A stretch of DNA of 64,000 bases from NCBI RefSeq assembly GCF_030506325.1, contig NZ_CP120683.1, forward strand, positions 4,353,001 to 4,417,000, written 5' to 3'. Position 1 is the stretch's first letter. The number at the start of each line of letters is the position of its first letter. The position numbers and the translations under genes are program-made. Below are positions 4,499 through 16,802 of the stretch, in pieces. The notes below the pieces were generated by a model. That model was not told the origin of the DNA and searched no databases. It saw only the letters and a program-made list of their open reading frames with translations. This stretch comes from Tunicatimonas pelagia. Its GTDB lineage: Bacteria; Bacteroidota; Bacteroidia; Cytophagales; Cyclobacteriaceae.

Positions 4499-5074
4499 GT
4501 GGAGCAAACGTATACCGAAGATCAAACGCTTATTCAGCGCATCAAAGATGGCGATGAAACTAGCTTAATTAAAATTTATAAAGAATATCGACCGGCTTTT
4601 CAGCAGTGGGCGCAGCATAGCTACCGTATTGATGAAGAACAATCGGCCGATGCCTTTCAGGATGCGGTAGTGTGCCTCTACCGAAACATCGTTCAGGGTA
4701 AGCTAGAATCACTAACCAGCTCATTAAAGACTTACTTATTTGCCATTGGCAAAAACGTTATCCGTAAGAAGCTACAGCAACCGGTTGCCCTAGAGAGTAG
4801 CGAACTAGGTCTGGTAGAAAGCCTCCACGCCGACCCTATTGACCAATTTGCCACCAATGATCGCCAACGCTTGGTAGCTCGACTGATGGAGACCATAGGT
4901 GAACCCTGTAAAAGTATTCTGGAGCTGTTCTACTTCCGTGGTTTTAGCATGGAAGCCATTGCGGAACGGTTACAATATAAAAACGAAAACGTAGTAAAAA
5001 CCCAGAAGCTACGCTGCCTAACCAGTTTGAAAAGCATGGTACGCGAACGGTACCAAAACGAAGATTTTGTTTAA
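4499..5074 (+). CDS. ECF-type RNA polymerase sigma factor
   Basis: A 191-residue sigma-70 family protein. Region 2 lies near residues 25-95 (SADAFQDAVVCLYRNI, then LKTYLFAIGKNVIRKKL) and region 4 near 125-180 (helix-turn-helix around FRGFSMEAIAERLQYKNENVVKTQ). It would direct core RNA polymerase to a small regulon. The start is GTG at 4499: a stop lies 12 bases upstream in frame and no ATG gives a complete region 2. A short membrane protein gene follows immediately, the usual place for an anti-sigma factor. Target promoters cannot be deduced from the sequence. Confidence 0.85.
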   Translation: MEQTYTEDQTLIQRIKDGDETSLIKIYKEYRPAFQQWAQHSYRIDEEQSADAFQDAVVCLYRNIVQGKLESLTSSLKTYLFAIGKNVIRKKLQQPVALESSELGLVESLHADPIDQFATNDRQRLVARLMETIGEPCKSILELFYFRGFSMEAIAERLQYKNENVVKTQKLRCLTSLKSMVRERYQNEDFV

Positions 5075-5090
5075 GACAATAAGGGAGACG

Positions 5091-5390
5091 ATGGCAGAAA
5101 ATCGCTTTAACCAAATTGATAGATACGTTAGCGGGTCAATGGCTGGAGAAGAACTGGCTGAGTTTGAGAAGCGGATGCGAGAACACGTAGAATTGGCCGA
5201 GGGGGTGCACCTTCATCGTGATATTTTGGCTGGAATGGAGCTACAGTTTATGCGCGAACTCAAAGAGCGCCTCATACTAGCCGACCGCCCTGAAAAGAAA
5301 ATCAACTGGAAACTTATTGCCCTGATTGTCGGTGGGATGGCTGTTCTGGGAGCAGCCGGGTACGCCATCTACTACTATTATTTGCTATAA
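5091..5390 (+). CDS. Small single-pass membrane protein, candidate anti-sigma partner
   Basis: A 99-residue protein with a charged cytoplasmic N-terminal part (residues 1-70, predicted helical, pattern NRFNQIDRYVSGSMAGEELAEFEKR) and one membrane helix near the C-terminus (about 72-95) ending in YYYYLL. The ATG at 5091 has an AAGGGAG Shine-Dalgarno 4 bases upstream; an in-frame TTG at 5067 would overlap the sigma gene and is less likely. The opening residues resemble the N-terminal helical region of anti-sigma factors (a DRYVSGSM-type segment is common there), and the gene starts 16 bp after the ECF sigma gene. Anti-sigma function is inferred from position and shape only; there is no periplasmic sensor domain. 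Confidence 0.7.
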   Translation: MAENRFNQIDRYVSGSMAGEELAEFEKRMREHVELAEGVHLHRDILAGMELQFMRELKERLILADRPEKKINWKLIALIVGGMAVLGAAGYAIYYYYLL

Positions 5391-5424: not shown

Positions 5425-5808
5425 CTATTTGATCTGTAAACTTACTGAGTACTGCCGAAGCACGCTATTTTCCCAGTGTCGCTTCAAATCAAGGTTTAGT
5501 TTGTATTCCCCTTTTTCTATTGCTGAGAAGCAAAATTGCTGCAAAGCCTCTCCACCGGGTCTGCTTTGTTCAGACAGAACCTCTTCGCCGATAAGCTTTA
5601 GCTTGTTGGGGATACTATCAGCTTGCTGCCAAACCCAATAATAGCCGATGCCCGGCTGGTGAGATAACTCTACCAGTAGGGTATCTTTGTAGGCTACCTC
5701 CACTTGCTGATTATGATGCTGTTCATCTAATATTATTTCAGTTGTATTCATTGGTTGGTGATATAATGCTGATAACCACAGGTAAAAGAATAGAACTACT
5801 TGTTTCAT
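5425..5808 (-). CDS. Chagasin-type (MEROPS I42) cysteine protease inhibitor, exported
   Basis: A 127-residue protein with a hydrophobic N-terminal export segment (residues 3-15) and an immunoglobulin-like domain carrying recognisable forms of the three inhibitory loops of the chagasin family: a GIGYYW loop (family NPTTGY-x-W), a RPGGEAL loop (family GxGG), and LKRHWENS near the end (family RPW). These loops normally enter the active-site cleft of papain-type peptidases. The gene lies 64 bp downstream of a papain-family protease on the same strand, so target and inhibitor are probably co-transcribed. The loops are divergent, so the family call rests on the pattern and the neighbour together. 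Confidence 0.7.
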   Translation of the reverse strand: MKQVVLFFYLWLSALYHQPMNTTEIILDEQHHNQQVEVAYKDTLLVELSHQPGIGYYWVWQQADSIPNKLKLIGEEVLSEQSRPGGEALQQFCFSAIEKGEYKLNLDLKRHWENSVLRQYSVSLQIK

Positions 5809-5826
5809 AACTGATACGAATGAAGG

Positions 5827-5855
5827 CTTCCCTTACGCAGTGAAGGTAAGGGAAG
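5827..5855 (-). promoter_or_regulatory. Intercistronic hairpin between protease and inhibitor
   Basis: Perfect 10-bp inverted repeat CTTCCCTTAC/GTAAGGGAAG with a 9-base loop, inside the 64-bp gap between the protease stop and the inhibitor start. No T-run follows on the minus strand, so it does not look like a complete intrinsic terminator. It could set the relative expression or mRNA stability of the two genes; this is inference. Confidence 0.5.
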
Positions 5856-5872
5856 TCCCCAAGTTGGATAAA

Positions 5873-6943
5873 TTATCCCTCAATCTTTTCAAATTCTTCA
5901 GGATGAAGAAACGGGTTAATAATTTCAAAGCGTTCTCTGATAACCTCCAATAAATAATCATCAGGAATGTAAAACCGGCTTTGAGCTTGCACCCAGGTGG
6001 CAGCATACCCTACGTTGTTGGTGTTGTAGTCAATCCACATATAGCCATTGTCGCCCCAGCCACTACCCCAAGAATTTTTGATAAGCCAAGCGTTTTTGTT
6101 GTCATCCCAGCCTACCAATGTTATAGCGTGATTTATTCCTTTGCCAGCTTCTTCTTCCTTAAATACTCCATCAGCCGGATTGTACCGCATAAAAGCGGAA
6201 GTAGCTTTCACCGCTATTGACAATGAACCATACTTACACAACGCATCTTTTAGCTCTTGTACCGAAGGTATTTCACGTTTTACCGTTACAAAGCCCCAGT
6301 TTATGGCTCGGAAAGGTTTATAAAGTCGAGGAGAACAGAAGTCATCTAGTGCTAGATACGGTTCGCTGGCTTCGCTGGCCACCCCGTTTGTCAGCATGTA
6401 TTTAAACACAGGATCATACCAGCCACCGCGGCAACTTCCTGCGCCTGCACAGTTCAAGACATCCTGCTCCGACACATCAGCGGTGATATTATTGCGGATC
6501 ATATTACTGCTCTCGTAAGCACCCATAGCGGCAAATGCCCAGCAACTACCGCAGCCACCCTGATTACGAACCGCAGTTACCTTACCCACATCGCGCCAGT
6601 TAAAGGCAGTACGGCTGGCAAAACACATATCCTTAAATAAGTAATCGTAGTCAACTAACCGCTCGTAATCCAATTCATAAATAATCTCGGCGTACTTATT
6701 CTGGATTTCAGCAATCTCTTGCCAGTTTTCCGGTAGTTCAAATTGCGCCAGCACTTCTAGAGGATACTGTTCTGCGGCGTTATCATTCTCTCGGTCACGG
6801 TACTTGTCTTCAAATTTAGGATTGTTAAGCAAGGGGTAATGGGAAGAAATCTGTTCGCTGCTATCTTCGCAAGCAGTGAAGCTGATTCCAATAATGGTAA
6901 AAGCAATGATAATGGGAAATAGTGATTTACTTAGCTTTTGCAT
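5873..6943 (-). CDS. Papain-family (C1A) cysteine protease, lipoprotein
   Basis: A 356-residue protein with a type II signal peptide (hydrophobic core then FTACEDS, lipid Cys25), a propeptide-like region (about 30-115) and a complete C1A peptidase domain: oxyanion Gln128 in RNQGGCGSCWAF, nucleophile Cys134, His272 in GINHAITLVGW and Asn290 in IKNSWGSGWGDNGY. Paired cysteines such as those in LNCAGAGSCRGGW suggest disulphides, fitting an outer-membrane or periplasmic location. The lipid anchor and short propeptide suggest a cell-attached proteinase. The next gene on the same strand encodes a chagasin-type inhibitor. The 213 bp upstream, up to the PorP/OmpA gene, hold no recognisable gene. Confidence 0.93.
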   Translation of the reverse strand: MQKLSKSLFPIIIAFTIIGISFTACEDSSEQISSHYPLLNNPKFEDKYRDRENDNAAEQYPLEVLAQFELPENWQEIAEIQNKYAEIIYELDYERLVDYDYLFKDMCFASRTAFNWRDVGKVTAVRNQGGCGSCWAFAAMGAYESSNMIRNNITADVSEQDVLNCAGAGSCRGGWYDPVFKYMLTNGVASEASEPYLALDDFCSPRLYKPFRAINWGFVTVKREIPSVQELKDALCKYGSLSIAVKATSAFMRYNPADGVFKEEEAGKGINHAITLVGWDDNKNAWLIKNSWGSGWGDNGYMWIDYNTNNVGYAATWVQAQSRFYIPDDYLLEVIRERFEIINPFLHPEEFEKIEG

Positions 6944-7156: not shown

Positions 7157-8662
7157 TCAATGAGAAAAGCTGATTTCTACTCGCCGATTCTTAGCTCGAA
7201 GCACTTCGTCAGCGTTAGGGTACAAAGGCTCTTCTTCTCCCCTTCCTCCTACTTTAATTCGCTGATAATCAATTTGGTAATTCAGTAAAAATTGACGAAC
7301 TGCATTCGCTCGGGCTAGCGATAACCGCTGATTACCTTCTCGACTACCAACATTATCGGTATGCCCGGTGAGGGTTACTATTAAATTTGAGTTCTGCCGT
7401 AGAAAGCGCGCGATAGCTTGTAGGGAACTTCGCGATTCTTCCCCTACGGAAGTCTGACCGAAAGGAAACTCAATAAATAAATTAAGGGTAGATGTTTCTA
7501 TTCTACCCCGAAAATCATTCGAAGATAAAGGCACCACTACACGAGTTACTGAAAATTCTCTCACTGAATCGGTAAACGAAGCGGGCGGTAGTGAGGTAAG
7601 TAAAGGTATGGCTACGGATATTTTTTCTGTTGAGCGGTTCCGGCGACTGGATTTGCGTTTCTTACGGCGTTTTCGCTTGTTTTTATTTTTGGGGGTTACG
7701 GGCTGATGCCAAGCCAATGCAACTTCAAACGCACTTCGCAACGGATTAGCCCGGTGGCTACTTGCTCCCGTATCAAAGCTCACTCCCAGTGTGTAGTTGG
7801 ACTGATGCCACTGTAGGGCTAAAGCTAAGCTACGATTGAGGGTGTAGCGAGGAATAAAATCAACTCGAGGCGCACTATCAGCAATTCCAAAGGCATTCCT
7901 TAGTTCGTAGGAGAAGCGACTGCCTACGTTCAAAATGCTCACCCCAGCCTGGTGCAGCAGTAACAACTCAGGAAACAGCGTAAAGCGATTTTTTTGGTAC
8001 GCCCGCAAACCGCTTTGTAAACTCAATGTAGACGGCAACGGCTGGGCATCGCCAAAAAATGACTCATCCGGTCGGTTAAGATCCAACCAGCTTATTCCGG
8101 CATAGAACGTAGTATTTTCGTGGCGATCTAGAGCGTACCACAGCACTCCGGTTCCTAGAGAGAGGTAGTTGGCTTGTAGATCATTCATGTTTTCGCCCGA
8201 GCCTAGTGCTGGGTCAAAACCCTGGCCGGGGCGAAACTGGCTACCGGTACGAATATTTTCAGTAGAGATTCGCTTGATCTGATAATGAGCCTGAACCCCT
8301 AAACTGAGTCGCTGATACCGAGAAAGCGAAATGTCGTGCGCCAATAAAGCCCCCAACCGCTGAAAACGGTACCAACCCGATTCGCCGGTGTTATCATCCA
8401 GTACCGAAATACCTACGCCCCCGTACCGACGTTTGCCCTGTAGTAGCGGACGGGTTACTGTAAGTTGAGAAGATTGAAAAATATACCCACCATCAAAATT
8501 CTGACGGCGATAGTGAGCCACAACCCACCAGTCGGGTGAAGCTGCTGCCCAAGCCGGGTTTGTATTAACCGGAGCCAGTTGGTACTGGGTGAATAATGGG
8601 TTTTGGGCAAAGGAGTGAAGTGCGCTGAGTAAAAAGAAAAGTAGCAGAAAAGTGCGAATCAT
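7157..8662 (-). CDS. PorP/SprF-family outer-membrane barrel fused to an OmpA peptidoglycan-binding domain
   Basis: A 501-residue protein. Residues 1-19 form a signal peptide ending SFAQ. Residues 20-320 match PorP/SprF proteins (start NPLFTQYQLAPVNTNPAWAA, then alternating beta-strand pattern). A basic linker near 325-345 (KNKRKRRKKRKSSRRNR) leads to an OmpA C-terminal domain (about 390-501) with TGHTDNVGS and the N-x2-LS-x2-RA-x2-V signature. PorP/SprF proteins hold or present T9SS cargo at the cell surface; OmpA domains bind diaminopimelate in peptidoglycan. The fusion would anchor a cargo-presenting barrel to the wall. It starts 20 bp after the secreted FG-GAP protein gene and is the last gene of a four-gene operon. 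Confidence 0.88.
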   Translation of the reverse strand: MIRTFLLLFFLLSALHSFAQNPLFTQYQLAPVNTNPAWAAASPDWWVVAHYRRQNFDGGYIFQSSQLTVTRPLLQGKRRYGGVGISVLDDNTGESGWYRFQRLGALLAHDISLSRYQRLSLGVQAHYQIKRISTENIRTGSQFRPGQGFDPALGSGENMNDLQANYLSLGTGVLWYALDRHENTTFYAGISWLDLNRPDESFFGDAQPLPSTLSLQSGLRAYQKNRFTLFPELLLLHQAGVSILNVGSRFSYELRNAFGIADSAPRVDFIPRYTLNRSLALALQWHQSNYTLGVSFDTGASSHRANPLRSAFEVALAWHQPVTPKNKNKRKRRKKRKSSRRNRSTEKISVAIPLLTSLPPASFTDSVREFSVTRVVVPLSSNDFRGRIETSTLNLFIEFPFGQTSVGEESRSSLQAIARFLRQNSNLIVTLTGHTDNVGSREGNQRLSLARANAVRQFLLNYQIDYQRIKVGGRGEEEPLYPNADEVLRAKNRRVEISFSH

Positions 8663-8682
8663 ACCGATGAGTTATCAATAAT

Positions 8683-11223
8683 TTACCGAACCAGGCGCAA
8701 CGTACCAGACTGATTTCCTTCAAACACCAGCGGAGTGCCATCCTCAAAAGAACCAGAAATCTTCCAGAGATATAGCCCGTTGGGTAGTGATTGATTACGG
8801 TATTTTCCGTCCCAGCCTTCTGCCAAGCGATTGGTTTCAAACAGTAGCGTACCCTGCCGGTCGTATACCTGAAAAGTTAGCGTTTCAACTCGTTGTCCGT
8901 ACAGACGAAATTCATCGTTCTTACCATCGCCATTCGGCGAAAACAGGTTCGGGACAAACAGCGTAGTGAGCACCCGCGCTGGCTCTAGTATCACGGTAAT
9001 GCTATCCGTAACGGAGCAACCGTTTAGGGTAACTGCCTGAAGAAAATAGGTAGTCGTTTGAGTGGGTGAGGCTGTTACCGATTGCTGAGTGGTATCGCTT
9101 AAGTTATCTGCTGGAAACCAAGTGTAGCCAAGAGCCTCTTCGGCGCGCAAGGTCACCAATGAACCAGACTCTACACTTACCTGGGTGTCGGCAATTAGCT
9201 CTTCTTCTGGAAAGAGGTCGATTATCATGGTATCGTACACCAAACAGGCCGAAGGCAGCGTTGCCTCCAGCCACAGCGTATCGGGTTCAATTACTTCAAA
9301 TGCCAGCGTATCCTCCGAACCCACTAACCCCTGACGAGCCGAGTGCCAGTTGACTGCTGAAAAAACGGAATCCGTTACCAAGACTAACGGTTCGTTTCGG
9401 CAAACGGTAGTATCGCTGGGAAGTAAATCAAATTCTTCGTCGGTAGTGACAGTGATTGTATAGTTGATAGCACAATTGGTTTCCGATTGAATAGCGTAGT
9501 AGAGCGTATCGGATTTAACCACTGTGTAATCTAACTGCCGACTGGTTTGCAGGTAGCCCTGCTGGGTGGAGTACCAATCTACCGCCTGCCTGGCTCCTAA
9601 ACGCAGCGTAGTATTGACGCAAACTGCCGTATCTTCTCGCGTAATGGTAAAGCATACTTCGCGCCCGCCACCGCCTTCGCAGGGTTCACTCATCCGAAAG
9701 GAGTTATCTACGGCGGCTACTCCCCAGTGAAAGGTGCCTTCCGGCAGGTTACGAACGATGTGCTCAGTACCGTACCCTGCTCGTCCGTAATCAGCCCGAT
9801 GTTTAAATTCATCCGAAAATTCCGGTGAAACATCATAAACTACATTACCTTCTTGCTGAACGTACAGATCAAATGTTAGCGCAGCTAGTTGTGTGGTATC
9901 ATCGGGCGAAGCCTGCCAGTTGAGGAACGTCTTGTTGGCAATCGTGCGTACCTCAGGAGCTGAAGGGCGACCGGGGCCGGCATTTTCGGTATTAGTTTCG
10001 TTCCACAGTAGAAATAAGGAGTCCGGTGAATTGGGGTAGTTGGCTACTATCAGCCCATCTAAATTTCCGTCATTATTCATATCACCCACTGTCTGATAAA
10101 AATCAGAGGCCAACAATAATAAATCGTACACTTCTTCCCGAACGGTACTATCTTGATTGAAGTACCAGCGTAGCACGTTCTGCCCGCTAGCGTCCTGTCC
10201 AGCCAAACTAATATCGGCCAGACCATCGTGGTTGTAATCGGCCAGCGAAGCGAAGTCGCCCCGAATGGAAGGCATCTCTAATTTTAGCAACTCATAATTC
10301 TGATTGGTATACTGGTACAAAGTAGTTGCCGGTTCGTTCTGAGCATTCTGTCCCGAGAGTAGTATATCGTTGCGGCCATCGTGGTTATAGTCACCAATGG
10401 CTACCGCGGTGCCGATTACCGAATCAGGAACAACATTTTTAGGGGCAAAGGCAAAATTTGTTTGGTTCTGGTAGAGTTGGGTAACTGCTTCTCCATTTTC
10501 CGTGGTTCCACTCAGCAGTAGGTCAATCTCATCGTCGTTATTCCAATCGTAGGCGGTGGCTACACCGGCTTGTAGGGCGATAAGTAGTGTGTCTTGAACA
10601 ATAAAAGCCGTATCTACATTCTGATAGACTAAGGCAACCAGAGAATCTGCTTTGGTACCGTTGAGCATTAGGTCGCGCCTACCATCGTTATCGAAATCGG
10701 CACATGTGATAATACTGGCTTGCAGACTATCTACCTGCATTCTCAAACCAGTGCCCGGATCGGTTAAAGAATAAAAAACATTTGTAGTTCTGTCGTCAAC
10801 ACTGTCTCTACCCGAGATCACCACGTCTAGCAAGTTATCTCGATTAAGGTCAGCAAAAGCGAAAGTAGCTTCGGTAATGGTAGGCAGAGAGAGTTGTCTT
10901 AGCGTAAATGTTTGGTTACCCTGGTTCTCGTAAATCCAGTAGCCAATATTTCCTGCCGAATTGGTTCCGTAGAAGAAATAATCCAAAAAGGTATCACCGC
11001 TTAGTTCGGCAGCAGTGGCGTACTCAATATTGAGGGGCAACGTCAACGTATCGGGTTTGAAATTTTGGGCAGATACGGTTATGGTCAGGGTGAAGCAAAA
11101 TATGATGGGAAATAAAAAGTGAAGAAAAATCCCCCTCAATCCCCGCTCCACGGCGGTCACTTTGTCAAAGGGGGAATTGTATAACGTGTTTTTGCTCTGG
11201 TGTTTATCGATAGACACTTTCAT
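8683..11223 (-). CDS. Large secreted FG-GAP/VCBS repeat protein with T9SS type B C-terminal domain
   Basis: An 846-residue surface protein. An unusually long N-terminal region (1-30) precedes the hydrophobic signal segment ending VSAQ (residue 53). Residues 60-420 hold about six FG-GAP/VCBS repeats with Ca-binding D-x-N-x-D-G-type loops (DFDNDGRRD, DYNHDGRND, DYNHDGLAD, DMNNDGNLD), predicted to form a beta-propeller. Residues 425-755 are beta-rich, Ig-like modules, and 755-846 is the gliding-motility-associated sorting domain (FSPNGDGKNDEF, then VYDRQGTLLFE and LPNGLYLWKI). It should be exported by the T9SS and shown on the surface, probably by the PorP/OmpA protein next door. Residues 12-30 are encoded by a dispersed-repeat-like sequence, so the true start is uncertain. 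Confidence 0.87.
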   Translation of the reverse strand: MKVSIDKHQSKNTLYNSPFDKVTAVERGLRGIFLHFLFPIIFCFTLTITVSAQNFKPDTLTLPLNIEYATAAELSGDTFLDYFFYGTNSAGNIGYWIYENQGNQTFTLRQLSLPTITEATFAFADLNRDNLLDVVISGRDSVDDRTTNVFYSLTDPGTGLRMQVDSLQASIITCADFDNDGRRDLMLNGTKADSLVALVYQNVDTAFIVQDTLLIALQAGVATAYDWNNDDEIDLLLSGTTENGEAVTQLYQNQTNFAFAPKNVVPDSVIGTAVAIGDYNHDGRNDILLSGQNAQNEPATTLYQYTNQNYELLKLEMPSIRGDFASLADYNHDGLADISLAGQDASGQNVLRWYFNQDSTVREEVYDLLLLASDFYQTVGDMNNDGNLDGLIVANYPNSPDSLFLLWNETNTENAGPGRPSAPEVRTIANKTFLNWQASPDDTTQLAALTFDLYVQQEGNVVYDVSPEFSDEFKHRADYGRAGYGTEHIVRNLPEGTFHWGVAAVDNSFRMSEPCEGGGGREVCFTITREDTAVCVNTTLRLGARQAVDWYSTQQGYLQTSRQLDYTVVKSDTLYYAIQSETNCAINYTITVTTDEEFDLLPSDTTVCRNEPLVLVTDSVFSAVNWHSARQGLVGSEDTLAFEVIEPDTLWLEATLPSACLVYDTMIIDLFPEEELIADTQVSVESGSLVTLRAEEALGYTWFPADNLSDTTQQSVTASPTQTTTYFLQAVTLNGCSVTDSITVILEPARVLTTLFVPNLFSPNGDGKNDEFRLYGQRVETLTFQVYDRQGTLLFETNRLAEGWDGKYRNQSLPNGLYLWKISGSFEDGTPLVFEGNQSGTLRLVR
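11127..11180. repeat. Palindromic repeat-like element inside the 5' coding region
   Basis: About 54 bp bounded by AATCCCCCTCAAT and TCAAAGGGGGAATT, an imperfect inverted pair around a GC-rich centre (CCACGGCGG). The shape resembles the dispersed C5/G5-ended repeats common in intergenic DNA of Bacteroidota and cyanobacteria. Here it is translated in frame as the region before the signal peptide core of the FG-GAP protein. Its repeat nature is inferred from shape; only one copy is in this window. Confidence 0.45.
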
Positions 11224-11233
11224 GTTGTTGAGC

Positions 11234-11938
11234 TTAAAGATTGTCGTCTAGTTGAAAGGTGAGCGGCATGGTATGTTTGGTGGCTACGGGTTTGCCGTTT
11301 ACCTGAGCCGGAGCCCACTCGGGCATGGATTTTATCAGCCGGATGGCCTCCTCATCAATATCTTCGCGTACACTTTGCAAAATGCGGATCTGATCGGGGT
11401 GGCCTTCCTCATTAATATAAAATTCAACTAGCACACTGCCTTCGGCCTGATCCCGCCGGGCTGCTTCGGGGTATTGTAGGTGGTCGGCAAAGTATTCGTA
11501 CAAAGCGGGGTAACCTCCTATCGGTTGGGCTTCTTCAAATTGGCTGGTAGCTTTCGCCGGTGTTTTTGCTTTAGGTTTTGAAGGTAAAGCTTCCGTATTC
11601 AGGGTGGAAGAAGTTTTTCTTTCTGGTAATGGCACCGCCTGAATTTGGGACGTAAAGCCTTCATTCCGGAGTGGATTCTCTGGGCCAGATAGCTGCGGAG
11701 GAAGCGCAGTAACTTTGGTAGGCAGATCGGCGACCTGAGGCGCATCAATCCAGTAGATGATTCCCCAACCGGCCAACCCCAATCCCATCGCTATTATGGC
11801 TCCGTACAACCATCGGCGGTAGTTAGAGCGAGTTTGCTGGGCTTGTTGATACTGGATCAGAAGCTGGTCAAAATCTTGCCACTGGGCCGGATCAGAAGGA
11901 GGGCGATCGTTAAACATACAGCGATACGTTAATTTCAT
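11234..11938 (-). CDS. Single-pass membrane protein with periplasmic TonB C-terminal domain
   Basis: A 234-residue protein: cytoplasmic N-terminus (1-43, containing DPAQWQDFDQLLIQYQQAQQ), one membrane helix (about 44-64), a Pro/Lys/Thr-rich periplasmic linker, and a TonB C-terminal fold (about 145-234) with YPEAARRDQAEGSVLVEFYI, VNGKPVATKHTMPLTFQ. TonB domains contact outer-membrane proteins. ExbBD-type energising partners are absent here. Sitting 11 bp after an ECF sigma gene and upstream of a T9SS cargo and PorP barrel, it could act as a membrane signal carrier or anti-sigma factor as well as a TonB. Met8 (MFNDRPPSD) is an equally plausible start. Function beyond the domain is inferred. Confidence 0.8.
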   Translation of the reverse strand: MKLTYRCMFNDRPPSDPAQWQDFDQLLIQYQQAQQTRSNYRRWLYGAIIAMGLGLAGWGIIYWIDAPQVADLPTKVTALPPQLSGPENPLRNEGFTSQIQAVPLPERKTSSTLNTEALPSKPKAKTPAKATSQFEEAQPIGGYPALYEYFADHLQYPEAARRDQAEGSVLVEFYINEEGHPDQIRILQSVREDIDEEAIRLIKSMPEWAPAQVNGKPVATKHTMPLTFQLDDNL

Positions 11939-11949
11939 GATACTGGTAT

Positions 11950-12480
11950 TTACATTTCCAACTGTTTGCGAAGTTTAGCCAGCAGTCGGTAGGTTCTTAC
12001 TTTGGCATTGTTCTCGGTAATGTTGAGAATGAAGCTGATTTCCCGGAAAGGCTTTTGTTCAAAGAAGCGAAGCTCTAAAAGTTGTACTTCCTCCAGACGA
12101 AGCGTGTTGATAGCTGCAATTAAGTGATCTCGCCACTTCTCCAGATAATCTGGTGAATATTCCTCTTCACTCTTTAGCTCAGCCAGTAGATTTTCGTCGA
12201 TAACAATTTTGCGAACATGCTTCGTGTTACGAAAAAACTGCATCACTTCATTGTGAGCAATGCGGTAGAGCCACGACAGAAAAGGAGCTTTAGTGATTTT
12301 GTACTTCTTCAGATGAAGCAGCGCACTAAGAAATACCTGAGAGGTAATATCGGCGGCTACGCTTTCATTATCTACCCGTCGGTACACAAACAAAAAGATA
12401 GGCCGATGATACTTTTCGTACAACGGACGAAATGCCTGCGGATCTCGCTGAGCTTCTCGAATATGCTGTTCCTCTTCGAT
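11950..12480 (-). CDS. ECF-type sigma factor with non-canonical or lost start codon
   Basis: Region 2 (LYEKYHRPIFLFVYRRVDNESVAADITSQVF) and region 4 (LRFFEQKPFREISFILNITENNAKVRTYRLLAKL) are both intact, so it should bind core RNA polymerase. The first standard start is a TTG at 12423, which cuts into region 2. The frame continues upstream with a convincing ECF N-terminus (EEEQHIREAQRDPQAFRP) to an ATC codon at 12478-12480, exactly where an ATG would be expected and exactly where an AT-rich repeat element ends. No ATG, GTG or TTG lies between that point and the upstream stop. Either an ATC/ATT start is used, translation begins at TTG, or an ATG has mutated. It is the first gene of the operon running down to the PorP/OmpA gene. 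Confidence 0.8.
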   Translation of the reverse strand: MEEEQHIREAQRDPQAFRPLYEKYHRPIFLFVYRRVDNESVAADITSQVFLSALLHLKKYKITKAPFLSWLYRIAHNEVMQFFRNTKHVRKIVIDENLLAELKSEEEYSPDYLEKWRDHLIAAINTLRLEEVQLLELRFFEQKPFREISFILNITENNAKVRTYRLLAKLRKQLEM

Positions 12481-12574
12481 AATGAATGATGGTTAGTGAA
12501 TAATGCCGACGTAACGCGGACTGATGACTTGTAATAAATCATTCATTAATCATTAGTCATCAATCATTCATTAG
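12481..12574. repeat. AT-rich hairpin repeat of degenerate ATGA/TCAT words, copy 1
   Basis: Left arm 12481-12505 (AATGAATGATGGTTAGTGAA and following) and right arm 12534-12574 (CATTCATTAATCATTAGTCA and following) are made of ATGA/TCAT words in opposite orientation, forming an imperfect hairpin with a GC-richer loop. It abuts the start of the ECF sigma gene and ends 42 bp before the rlmD stop. Confidence 0.6.
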
Positions 12575-12616
12575 AATACCAAACCTTGGAAAAGATACAG
12601 CCTCAGGCGAAATTTT

Positions 12617-14029: not shown

Positions 14030-14183
14030 AGCGTGAGCAAAGGTACGCTATTTGTACTATCTGATTAGCTGATTAAGATAATTGTAAGTAGTCCGACTAA
14101 CTTTTTAGGGAAAATAAGTATCTTTAGCATTGAGGGAAGTAAAAATTACGGTTTTTACAGGTGTTAGACTTAACCTTTGGCGA

Positions 14184-16802
14184 ATGAAGAAGTGTCTACT
14201 AAGCTTGCTCCTTTGCTTTGTTTTTCTCAAAACAATAGAGGCGAGCCACATTGTGGGAGGAGAGTTTGAATTACGGCATATTGATGGTTTTCAGTATCAG
14301 TTGAACCTAATTCAGTACTTTGACGATGTAAATGGCGATCCGGATGCGGAAGATCTGGTGGCGGAAGTACATATTTTTCGGAAGAGCGACAATGCCTTTA
14401 TGACGGCCGTTCAACTCAGAAACGTCGGTTCCGAGTTTGTTGATTATACCAACCCAGAGTGTACCATTCCCGAGCTTTCTACCCGAAAAATCTTGTATAC
14501 GGAAAGCATCACGCTTCCCGCCGACCGATACAACGACCCGGAAGGCTACTACATAGTGTACGAACGCTGTTGCCGTAACAATCTTATTGATAACATTGCC
14601 CCTTCGGTGAAAGAACGATCTGGTCAAACCTTTTACCTGGAATTTCCACCGGTGGTTAAAAATGGCCGCCCCTTCGTAGATACCACCCCCATTTTATTTC
14701 CACCCTTGAGCGACTACGCGGTTATCAATAATCCGTTTTATTTCGATTTTTCAGGAAACGATCCTGACGGAGATTCGCTGGTGTATTCTCTAACGCACCC
14801 CCTGAATAGCTCTTTAACCGACCGCGGGCTTCCGCCACCCACTCCGGCTCCGCATCCGCTGGTTGACCTAGCCGACGGGTATACGCTTAGCAACATCATT
14901 GCTGGAACTCCGCCCTTACGCATTAGTCAGGAAGGGCTGCTTACTGTAACTCCTTCAGAGCTTGGCTTGTTTGTATTTGCTATTAAAGTAGAGGAGTTTC
15001 GCGATGGCGAAAAAATTGGGGAGGTAAGACGAGATTTTCAGATGTTTGTAGTAGACGCTGACCCTGGCGAAACGCCCCGAGTGCAGGCTAAGGTAAAGGG
15101 AAATTCCAACTTTTATGAGGAAGGTAATATTATAAACTTTGGTTTGGAAGACGAAAAGTGCCTGGAACTTTTTATTACCGATGCTGATCCGGAAGAAGTA
15201 ATTACCGTAGAGGCAAAAGGAGTAAATTTTGACCAGGATATTCAAGACCTAATCTCTACCAAGTTAAGCATTCTGAACGGCTCTACCGACACACTTAAAC
15301 TAGATTTTTGTCTGCCCGATTGCCCCTACGTGCGCGGCCCTATGCTAATTGATATCATTGCTTACGATGATGCCTGTAGTGTGCCGCTGCGCGATACACT
15401 TCGGCTCACGGTAGAAGTAGAGGGACCACAAAACAGCGATCCGGTTATTGTCGGAAATCCCAACGTACTCAATGTAGATCTTAATGTAGGTGAAAACTAC
15501 GAACTGGAAATTCAGGGGTTAGATGAGGATGATGATTTGCTGGTGCTAACTGCCGAAGGCGATGGTTTTAGTTTACAGGACTTGGGCATTGAGCTGCAAG
15601 AACGGCTGCTAGTGCCCGGCGAAGTCCGCAAGGTGCTGACTTGGACTCCTGACTGTTCGGCATTCGATTTTCGTTCCCAGAATGAGTTTACGGTACTGGT
15701 AGAACTAGACGATCTAAGCGAGTGTCAGCTAGGCGAGCCTGATCGGCTACAAATTCGCTTTCGGGTGAACTTACCGGATAACAATCGCCCAAAAATAACC
15801 CTAGATGGCCTGGAAGAAACTGAGGTAACTGTGCGAATTAATGAGCTACTAGCGTTTGATGTACTGGCCGAAGATGTTGATAACGATCTGCTCGATCTAC
15901 GCGCCATTGGCGACGGATTTGATTTGGCTGACTACGCTATCAACTTTCCGGGTAACACAGGTATTCGGAACATTAGCTCGCCCTTTAGTTGGCGACTTTC
16001 CTGCAACAATATTGATTTGGCCGAACGCAGCTCGTTTGATATTATTTTCCTTTCTACCGACCAAACCGGTTGTAGCGATCCGGCGACCGACTCACTTCGC
16101 ATCCGTATTAATGTACTACCGCCCGACAATGAAGCCCCTACCGTTTTTATACAAAACATTGAATCGGATACCGTGCGGGCTGCGGTGGGTTTTCCGGTAG
16201 TGCTCGATGTGGTGGGTGCCGATGAAAATCAATCAGACATTCTAACCCTTCGCTTAGCCGAAGTTACCCTCGATGGGGAGCCAATTGACCTGGAAGTAGT
16301 AAATTTCCAATTTAACAACGCTCGCGCCCGAGGCAGGGTACAGTCGCGTTTTTTCTGGAACCCTGATTGTTTCTTACTACCCCCTGATTTTGAGGAAGCT
16401 ACTTTTGAACTCATGTTTACGATAGAAGACGATCAGTGCTTCAACAGTAAGAACGATACTACTACCGTAACGTTGGAGCTAGGCGTAGCCCCGCTCAATT
16501 TTGATGAATTTGAACCTCGCAATGCTTTCACCCCCAATGGTGATGGCACCGGAGATTTTTTCCACCTAAATTTCTGTAACGAAATTAGTAGAGACTGTGA
16601 TCTGCCCCTAGGCACTTGCGCTAACCAGTTTCAACGTATCGAGGTTTTCAATCGGTGGGGAAAATTAGTCTACCAATCCAGTGATCCTAACTTTCAGTGG
16701 TACGCTCAAGACATGGCTCCGGGGCCTTATTTCTATTTGGTGTATTACTCCCGAGAAGTGTTTAAGGAAAGGGTGTACATCTATTCTCCGGATACTGAGT
16801 AA
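14184..16802 (+). CDS. Large secreted protein with gliding-motility-type (T9SS type B) C-terminal domain
   Basis: An 872-residue exported protein. The start is taken as ATG 14184 because it gives a clean signal peptide (MKKCLLSLLLCFVFLKTIEA then SHIVGGE); the frame extends upstream to a TTG at 14130 without a sensible N-terminus. The SHIVGGEFEL opening and following domain, with an ERCCRNNLI motif, are typical of a recurrent Bacteroidota surface-protein family. Four beta-sandwich modules follow, each with a similar GNPNV/DEDDDLL-type pattern (around 440, 545, 650, 760 of the long frame), then a sorting domain with FTPNGDGTGDFFHL and FNRWGKLVYQS. It should pass through the T9SS. No PorP gene is adjacent. 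A weak -7-like TATCTTTA lies at 14119-14126. Confidence 0.85.
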   Translation: MKKCLLSLLLCFVFLKTIEASHIVGGEFELRHIDGFQYQLNLIQYFDDVNGDPDAEDLVAEVHIFRKSDNAFMTAVQLRNVGSEFVDYTNPECTIPELSTRKILYTESITLPADRYNDPEGYYIVYERCCRNNLIDNIAPSVKERSGQTFYLEFPPVVKNGRPFVDTTPILFPPLSDYAVINNPFYFDFSGNDPDGDSLVYSLTHPLNSSLTDRGLPPPTPAPHPLVDLADGYTLSNIIAGTPPLRISQEGLLTVTPSELGLFVFAIKVEEFRDGEKIGEVRRDFQMFVVDADPGETPRVQAKVKGNSNFYEEGNIINFGLEDEKCLELFITDADPEEVITVEAKGVNFDQDIQDLISTKLSILNGSTDTLKLDFCLPDCPYVRGPMLIDIIAYDDACSVPLRDTLRLTVEVEGPQNSDPVIVGNPNVLNVDLNVGENYELEIQGLDEDDDLLVLTAEGDGFSLQDLGIELQERLLVPGEVRKVLTWTPDCSAFDFRSQNEFTVLVELDDLSECQLGEPDRLQIRFRVNLPDNNRPKITLDGLEETEVTVRINELLAFDVLAEDVDNDLLDLRAIGDGFDLADYAINFPGNTGIRNISSPFSWRLSCNNIDLAERSSFDIIFLSTDQTGCSDPATDSLRIRINVLPPDNEAPTVFIQNIESDTVRAAVGFPVVLDVVGADENQSDILTLRLAEVTLDGEPIDLEVVNFQFNNARARGRVQSRFFWNPDCFLLPPDFEEATFELMFTIEDDQCFNSKNDTTTVTLELGVAPLNFDEFEPRNAFTPNGDGTGDFFHLNFCNEISRDCDLPLGTCANQFQRIEVFNRWGKLVYQSSDPNFQWYAQDMAPGPYFYLVYYSREVFKERVYIYSPDTE

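Follow-up and report, generated by a model that had tools for sequence, protein, structure and literature searches.

Four minus-strand genes lie close together at 7157–12483 of the window, the 64,000-nucleotide stretch of the Tunicatimonas pelagia genome analysed here. From gene 1 to gene 4 they encode an ECF sigma factor, a single-pass membrane protein with a TonB_C domain, an FG-GAP cargo with a type B (CHU_C) sorting domain and a PorP/SprF-OmpA fusion protein, and the gaps between them are 11, 10 and 20 bp. The first-pass annotation had described the same four-gene unit, and both coordinates and domain matches agree with it. No Rfam matches were found within the window.

The sigma factor (11950–12483, minus strand) matches PF04542 (Sigma70_r2) and PF08281 (r4_2) above the cut-offs and shows the ECF architecture of regions 2 and 4 only, within about 170–190 residues. 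It scores below every NCBIfam equivalog cut-off shown and therefore belongs to an unnamed ECF subfamily. At the cut-off used, it is the only member of its family in the 7.3-Mb host genome. The second gene (11234–11938, minus strand; ORF and Pfam) encodes a protein of 234 residues, the proposed anti-sigma factor and sensor. Residues 1–41 (11816–11938) make up the proposed cytosolic anti-sigma domain. The single transmembrane helix covers about residues 43–62 (11753–11812) by hydropathy, and AF2 predicts a helix at residues 23–64. The periplasmic TonB C-terminal domain occupies residues 153–230 (11249–11482; PF03544, E 6.8e-19).

The secreted cargo (8683–11223, minus strand) has 846 residues, with three FG-GAP_3 matches, an Ig-like domain (Ig_7) and a CHU_C/TIGR04131 type B T9SS sorting domain at residues 756–823 (8755–8958). 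The last gene (7157–8662, minus strand) encodes a single protein of 501 residues, in which an outer-membrane barrel (PorP_SprF, residues 18–316, and TIGR03519) is joined to a peptidoglycan-binding OmpA domain (residues 399–493; 7184–7468). Type B cargo bind PorP-like proteins, and PorE contributes an OmpA anchor for peptidoglycan (PMC9143113). As in SprB-SprF and PG1035-PorP(-PorE), the TIGR04131/CHU_C cargo here has its PorP/SprF barrel gene directly downstream, and the genome carries the T9SS, with SprA present; unlike in those systems, PorP and OmpA form one protein, and the operon contains its own sigma factor and a membrane anti-sigma candidate. Judged from the domain matches, secretion of the cargo via the cassette barrel is putative. 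Besides that of the cassette, the host genome has 10 PorP genes, of which 6 follow a CHU_C gene. A further type B (CHU_C) cargo, of 890 residues, is encoded at 14130–16802 on the plus strand of the window and has no adjoining PorP gene.

The ORF tool sets the sigma start at TTG 12423, and the frame runs on upstream to ATT/ATC at 12483/12480. Upstream of this TTG, as far as a TAA at 12495, the sigma frame holds no ATG, GTG or TTG. All codon differences 5' of the TTG between the host and genome G003 are synonymous, so these codons are probably translated; the probable start codon of the gene is ATT or ATC. A dispersed short repeat (REP/MITE-like; about 12482–12571), with about 43 mostly partial matches in its own genome, lies between the promoter motif and the sigma gene and offers no standard start codon. 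By eye, a similar repeat sits at the equivalent place in G003 and is absent from G001; the G003 sigma gene likewise lacks a normal start codon after the repeat insertion.

A putative auto-regulated ECF promoter, TGTATCTTTT-N11-TATTCTA, is placed at 12572–12599 (minus strand) by motif match. The motif TGTATCTTT[T/A]-N11..13-[A/G]TT occurs just 5' of sigma in 32 of 91 loci (29 kb), compared with 9 matches in 2.13 Mb of other sequence; with the strict pattern, only about one in three of the sigma loci covered has it upstream. The exact motif is present once each in the host (G000), G001, G003, G010 and G028, always before the cassette sigma gene. A wide regulon was sought, and the search returned one exact site per genome, the cassette's own; sites with one mismatch lie near unrelated genes, in numbers little above those of the controls. 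Since the motif stands before sigma essentially once per genome, the operon is probably auto-regulated, and this motif count suggests that it drives itself and little else.

Conservation of the cassette

Searches of relatives, first with the TonB_C protein and later with a sigma-factor profile, followed by inspection of the gene neighbourhoods, yielded 131 loci. The full cassette (sigma, TonB_C protein, CHU_C cargo and PorP-OmpA) is present in 42 of these, in at least 22 genera and five families of one order (f1, f5, f9, f19 and f20). None of the 131 loci holds a partial cassette, with cargo alone or barrel alone. The number of complete copies, their spread over genera and the lack of partial ones indicate that the order is not accidental. 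The first-pass annotation had treated the order as a real unit, to be doubted if relatives did not share it; its identical recurrence in 42 loci is beyond chance and bears this out. The genes flanking the cassette vary between genera, while spacing within it is tight: gaps are mostly −4 to +12 bp, and sigma shares 4 bp with gene 2 in 26 of the 42 cassettes. Cargo length is mostly 793–878 residues. In G001, the PorP-OmpA frame (L038:5262–6776, minus strand) is split in two, by a frameshift or a draft-assembly error.

In the sigma tree, where many deep branches are unresolved, the cassettes are confined to one half (61 rows: 42 cassettes, 15 with sigma and TonB only, 4 other). A strict phylum-wide search (6 of 395 genomes) had suggested that the sigma family is restricted to one order; this was dropped after a scan of named genomes found it in Saprospiraceae, Flavobacteriales and Chitinophagales too. 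All 42 cassettes have TonB_C (41 of 41 scored, plus L086, which was recovered), compared with 21 of 72 non-cassette loci (Fisher p 3e-15, uncorrected for kinship).

The sigma–TonB pair is also kept without cargo and barrel, in L045, L099, L123 and relatives. Within one lineage, a MerR-like gene stands behind the complete cassette in L231; L099 and L123 share this gene and the sigma–TonB pair but lack cargo and barrel, and in L217 both arrangements lie side by side. Cargo and barrel thus behave as one unit, and the sigma pair forms a second one. Where cargo and barrel are missing, the pair therefore has other targets or senses something else.

The N-terminal segment and its predicted complex with sigma

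In 125 of the 131 loci the sigma gene is followed by a gene for a protein with the same cytosolic segment of about 40 residues ahead of a transmembrane helix, the arrangement of a membrane anti-sigma factor. The consensus of the segment is MKKYKIVKNKPEPSDEEIESYKNFDKLLKQYQ. Only three other ORFs across all 131 loci match it, and no Pfam or NCBIfam model covers it. What lies behind the helix varies: TonB_C, cytochrome c, unknown domains of up to about 600 residues, or nothing, in proteins of 72–100 residues. The constant N-terminal segment with a varied C-terminus is also found in Saprospiraceae, Flavobacteriales and Chitinophagales. Anti-sigma factors are built in this manner, from a constant domain on the sigma side and exchangeable periplasmic domains. 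The segment is very probably a short anti-sigma domain. In one locus (L118:6167–8023, minus strand), and probably in L125 too, this type of N-terminal domain and helix is joined to a cytochrome c domain; the L118 protein is possibly a heme- or redox-sensing anti-sigma factor.

The complex was modelled with a homologous pair, L245, because the 11-bp gap puts the host TonB gene in another reading frame than sigma. In L245 sigma and its partner share a frame, and with the stops read through they were modelled as one chain (in cis) with 106 alignment rows. For sigma, read-through and partner N-terminus together, the mean pLDDT is 92.5 and the pTM 0.85, with 85–97 over the partner segment. The model contains exactly two strands, residues 104–107 of the sigma linker and 207–210 of the partner, which can therefore only pair with each other. 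An alternating hydrophobic pattern is conserved in both. The model thus confidently predicts that the partner N-terminus docks on the σ2–σ4 linker by strand pairing. When the host TonB protein is modelled without sigma, residues 1–10 have a pLDDT of 44 and form no strand, and residues 1–16 are without structure, in a run whose alignment depth differs from that for L245. In Foldseek, the top PDB matches of the L245 complex are sigma factors solved with their anti-sigma factors (AlgU-MucA, SigW-RsiW and CnrH-CnrY); TMt reaches 0.71 for SigW-RsiW and 0.65 for CnrH-CnrY, compared with about 0.35–0.46 for polymerase-bound ECF factors.

The first-pass annotation had proposed that the TonB-domain protein holds the sigma factor. 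Invariant adjacency and overlap, an N-terminal domain shared with partners lacking TonB_C, and the confident AF2 complex lend this strong support in silico. The N-terminus of gene 2 is accordingly a predicted sigma-binding element and a presumed inhibitor.

Class I anti-sigma domains (ASDI/ZAS) are four-helix domains of about 100 residues on average with a known profile. The segment described here is of another kind, at about 40 residues, with no match to that profile in Pfam or NCBIfam and with one strand and short helices in the model. It is closer to class II (CnrY-like) domains, which have fewer than 50 residues and lay short helices on sigma (PMC7406223), but it differs in the predicted additional β-strand pairing with the σ2–σ4 linker and in forming its own sequence family.

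The TonB_C domain and the outer-membrane barrel

The TonB_C domain folds as a TonB-CTD, and its best PDB match is TonB on FoxA (6i97, TMt 0.84). Its relation to the other cassette domains was assessed by partial distance correlations over 34 dereplicated cassettes, with the remaining domains held constant. TonB_C correlates with OmpA at 0.33 (5–95% of subsamples 0.17–0.43) and with PorP at 0.18. The value for the anti-sigma domain and TonB_C is 0.08 despite their sharing one polypeptide, and that for TonB_C and CHU_C is −0.03. Sigma and the anti-sigma domain reach 0.27, as do CHU_C and PorP; the latter pair serves as a positive control because type B domains bind PorP-like barrels (PMC9143113). 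On these distances, variation in the TonB_C half follows that of the OmpA/PorP barrel and not that of the anti-sigma half, although the correlations are modest, come from few and related sequences and fall short of proving contact. L216 and L217 have a second sigma–TonB pair ahead of the cassette, so mispairing is possible there. A conserved TonB-box-like strand was sought in the PorP-OmpA linker and not found.

We consider it probable that the operon is a self-contained trans-envelope sigma/anti-sigma loop together with a display unit for one T9SS cargo-anchor pair. The FG-GAP cargo would exit via the T9SS. A PorP/SprF-type barrel of its own, pinned to peptidoglycan through the fused OmpA domain, would keep it at the cell surface. 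The TonB_C protein would act as the anti-sigma factor; its N-terminus of about 40 residues would bind sigma by pairing with the linker strand and by two short helices, and so keep it off RNA polymerase. The single transmembrane helix and a flexible linker would let the periplasmic TonB-like domain reach and contact the barrel/OmpA protein. A change in barrel state (it might be empty, loaded with cargo or misassembled) would be relayed by TonB_C and release sigma, which would then drive TGTATCTTTT-N11-YATTNTA before its own gene and adjust cargo and barrel together. The sigma/anti-sigma half of this scheme is well supported in silico. We infer the sensing of the barrel, and with it inhibition, release, the direction of the signal (on or off) and the contact between TonB_C and barrel.

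The first-pass annotation had TonB_C reading the state of the PorP/OmpA-cargo complex. Indirect support for that proposal comes from a TonB_C domain in every cassette, a fold like that of TonB domains solved on outer-membrane receptors and the co-variation with OmpA/PorP and not with the CHU_C domain of the cargo. Against an exclusive link, sigma and TonB outlive the loss of cargo and barrel in several relatives. The same survivals would be expected if sigma and TonB_C are a sigma/anti-sigma pair in which TonB_C senses something general, such as envelope stress, peptidoglycan or a TonB-dependent transporter, cargo and barrel being mere outputs. A sister clade (e.g. L135–L138 and L145), in which a short anti-sigma protein precedes a stand-alone TonB protein and a barrel is lacking, points the same way. 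We regard general sensing as unlikely nevertheless, as TonB_C is constant in cassettes and co-varies with OmpA/PorP, and cargo and barrel are gained or lost as one block.

Instead of sensing, TonB_C could act as an anchor. In the strict form of this idea it is a purely mechanical link between barrel and inner membrane, with sigma co-transcribed and not controlled by the barrel. Both the OmpA fusion and TonB_C suit a structural bridge, but C-terminal domains are swapped on a constant, sigma-linked N-terminal domain, which makes this very improbable. Slightly more improbable still is a role in energy transduction, to power or load the barrel, with sigma regulated otherwise: the C-terminal fold is indeed closest to TonB bound to outer-membrane receptors, but a conserved cytosolic domain precedes the transmembrane helix, which in a TonB energy transducer lies at the extreme N-terminus, the same domain adjoins the same sigma family where no TonB_C exists, and the AF2 model predicts a complex with sigma.

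The preferred reading, barrel state relayed to sigma, has a wider form, which we find plausible but hold with more doubt than belief. The N-terminal segment would define a new short anti-sigma family of Bacteroidota with exchangeable periplasmic sensors; the TonB domain, instead of powering transporters, would report on a T9SS anchor barrel pinned to peptidoglycan, on its occupancy or its mechanical state, and each cassette would measure its own surface loading.

Relation to known systems and neighbouring loci

The same arrangement was not found in the literature searched, where the nearest systems are Dma, FecIRA and PorXY-SigP. Dma, also from Bacteroidota, has an N-terminal anti-sigma domain, a transmembrane helix, a flexible tether and a C-terminus reaching the outer membrane, and is encoded beside an ECF gene (PMC13088901), its cognate sigma factor being of group ECF21. 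However, Dma ends in a β-barrel of its own, whereas the cassette protein ends in TonB_C and its barrel is a separate T9SS anchor with a cargo. FecI-FecR-FecA likewise combines an ECF sigma factor, a single-pass anti-sigma factor with a periplasmic domain and an outer-membrane barrel partner (PMC9249621); in contrast, Pfam finds neither a FecR domain nor a TonB-dependent transporter in the four cassette proteins, the barrel is of PorP/SprF type and the anti-sigma candidate carries TonB_C. By analogy, the cassette would work like Dma or FecIRA, yet it belongs to neither by the features compared. PorXY-SigP of Porphyromonas, with PorA, shares a T9SS-linked, auto-regulated ECF sigma factor and feedback from a surface protein (PMC7712824). 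It is, however, a two-component system acting on T9SS machinery genes, in which SigP is bound by PorX and there is no membrane anti-sigma factor, and it is not an operon for one cargo. The cassette is thus of a known kind, ECF sigma/anti-sigma surface signalling; new are the TonB-domain anti-sigma candidate and the union of T9SS cargo and anchor with it in one operon, which is probably auto-regulated.

Each T9SS substrate uses a cognate shuttle, and production of the two is thought to be matched in amount (PMC12618676). If correct, the proposed scheme would be the first sigma/anti-sigma loop in the literature searched that serves just one T9SS cargo with its anchor; it would use a TonB domain for signalling and make the surface display of a protein a self-monitoring process. 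A recognised class I anti-sigma factor lies near only about 6% of the ECF sigma factors of Bacteroidetes (PMC7406223). For one large group of them, a partner family defined by sequence gives a testable answer to the question of control.

The sigma family also occurs in other T9SS-related neighbourhoods. In Flavobacteriales (L278, L294 and L297), sigma and a minimal anti-sigma protein are followed by PorP and a PorE-like TPR/DUF1573 protein. In L265 the gene behind these two is a CHU_C gene, and PorP lies opposite. By eye, a GldM-like gene lies directly 5' of a sigma gene of the same family in L234 and L130.

Two further gene pairs adjoin the cassette in the window. Directly behind it, at 5425–6943 (minus strand), a papain-like C1 protease is encoded beside a chagasin-type (I42) inhibitor of such proteases; this pair is absent from the equivalent place in G001 and G003. 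Facing the cassette, at 4499–5390 (plus strand), a second, different ECF sigma gene overlaps a gene for a short membrane protein. The two are likely another sigma/anti-sigma pair, and they are conserved beside the cassette in G001 and G003.
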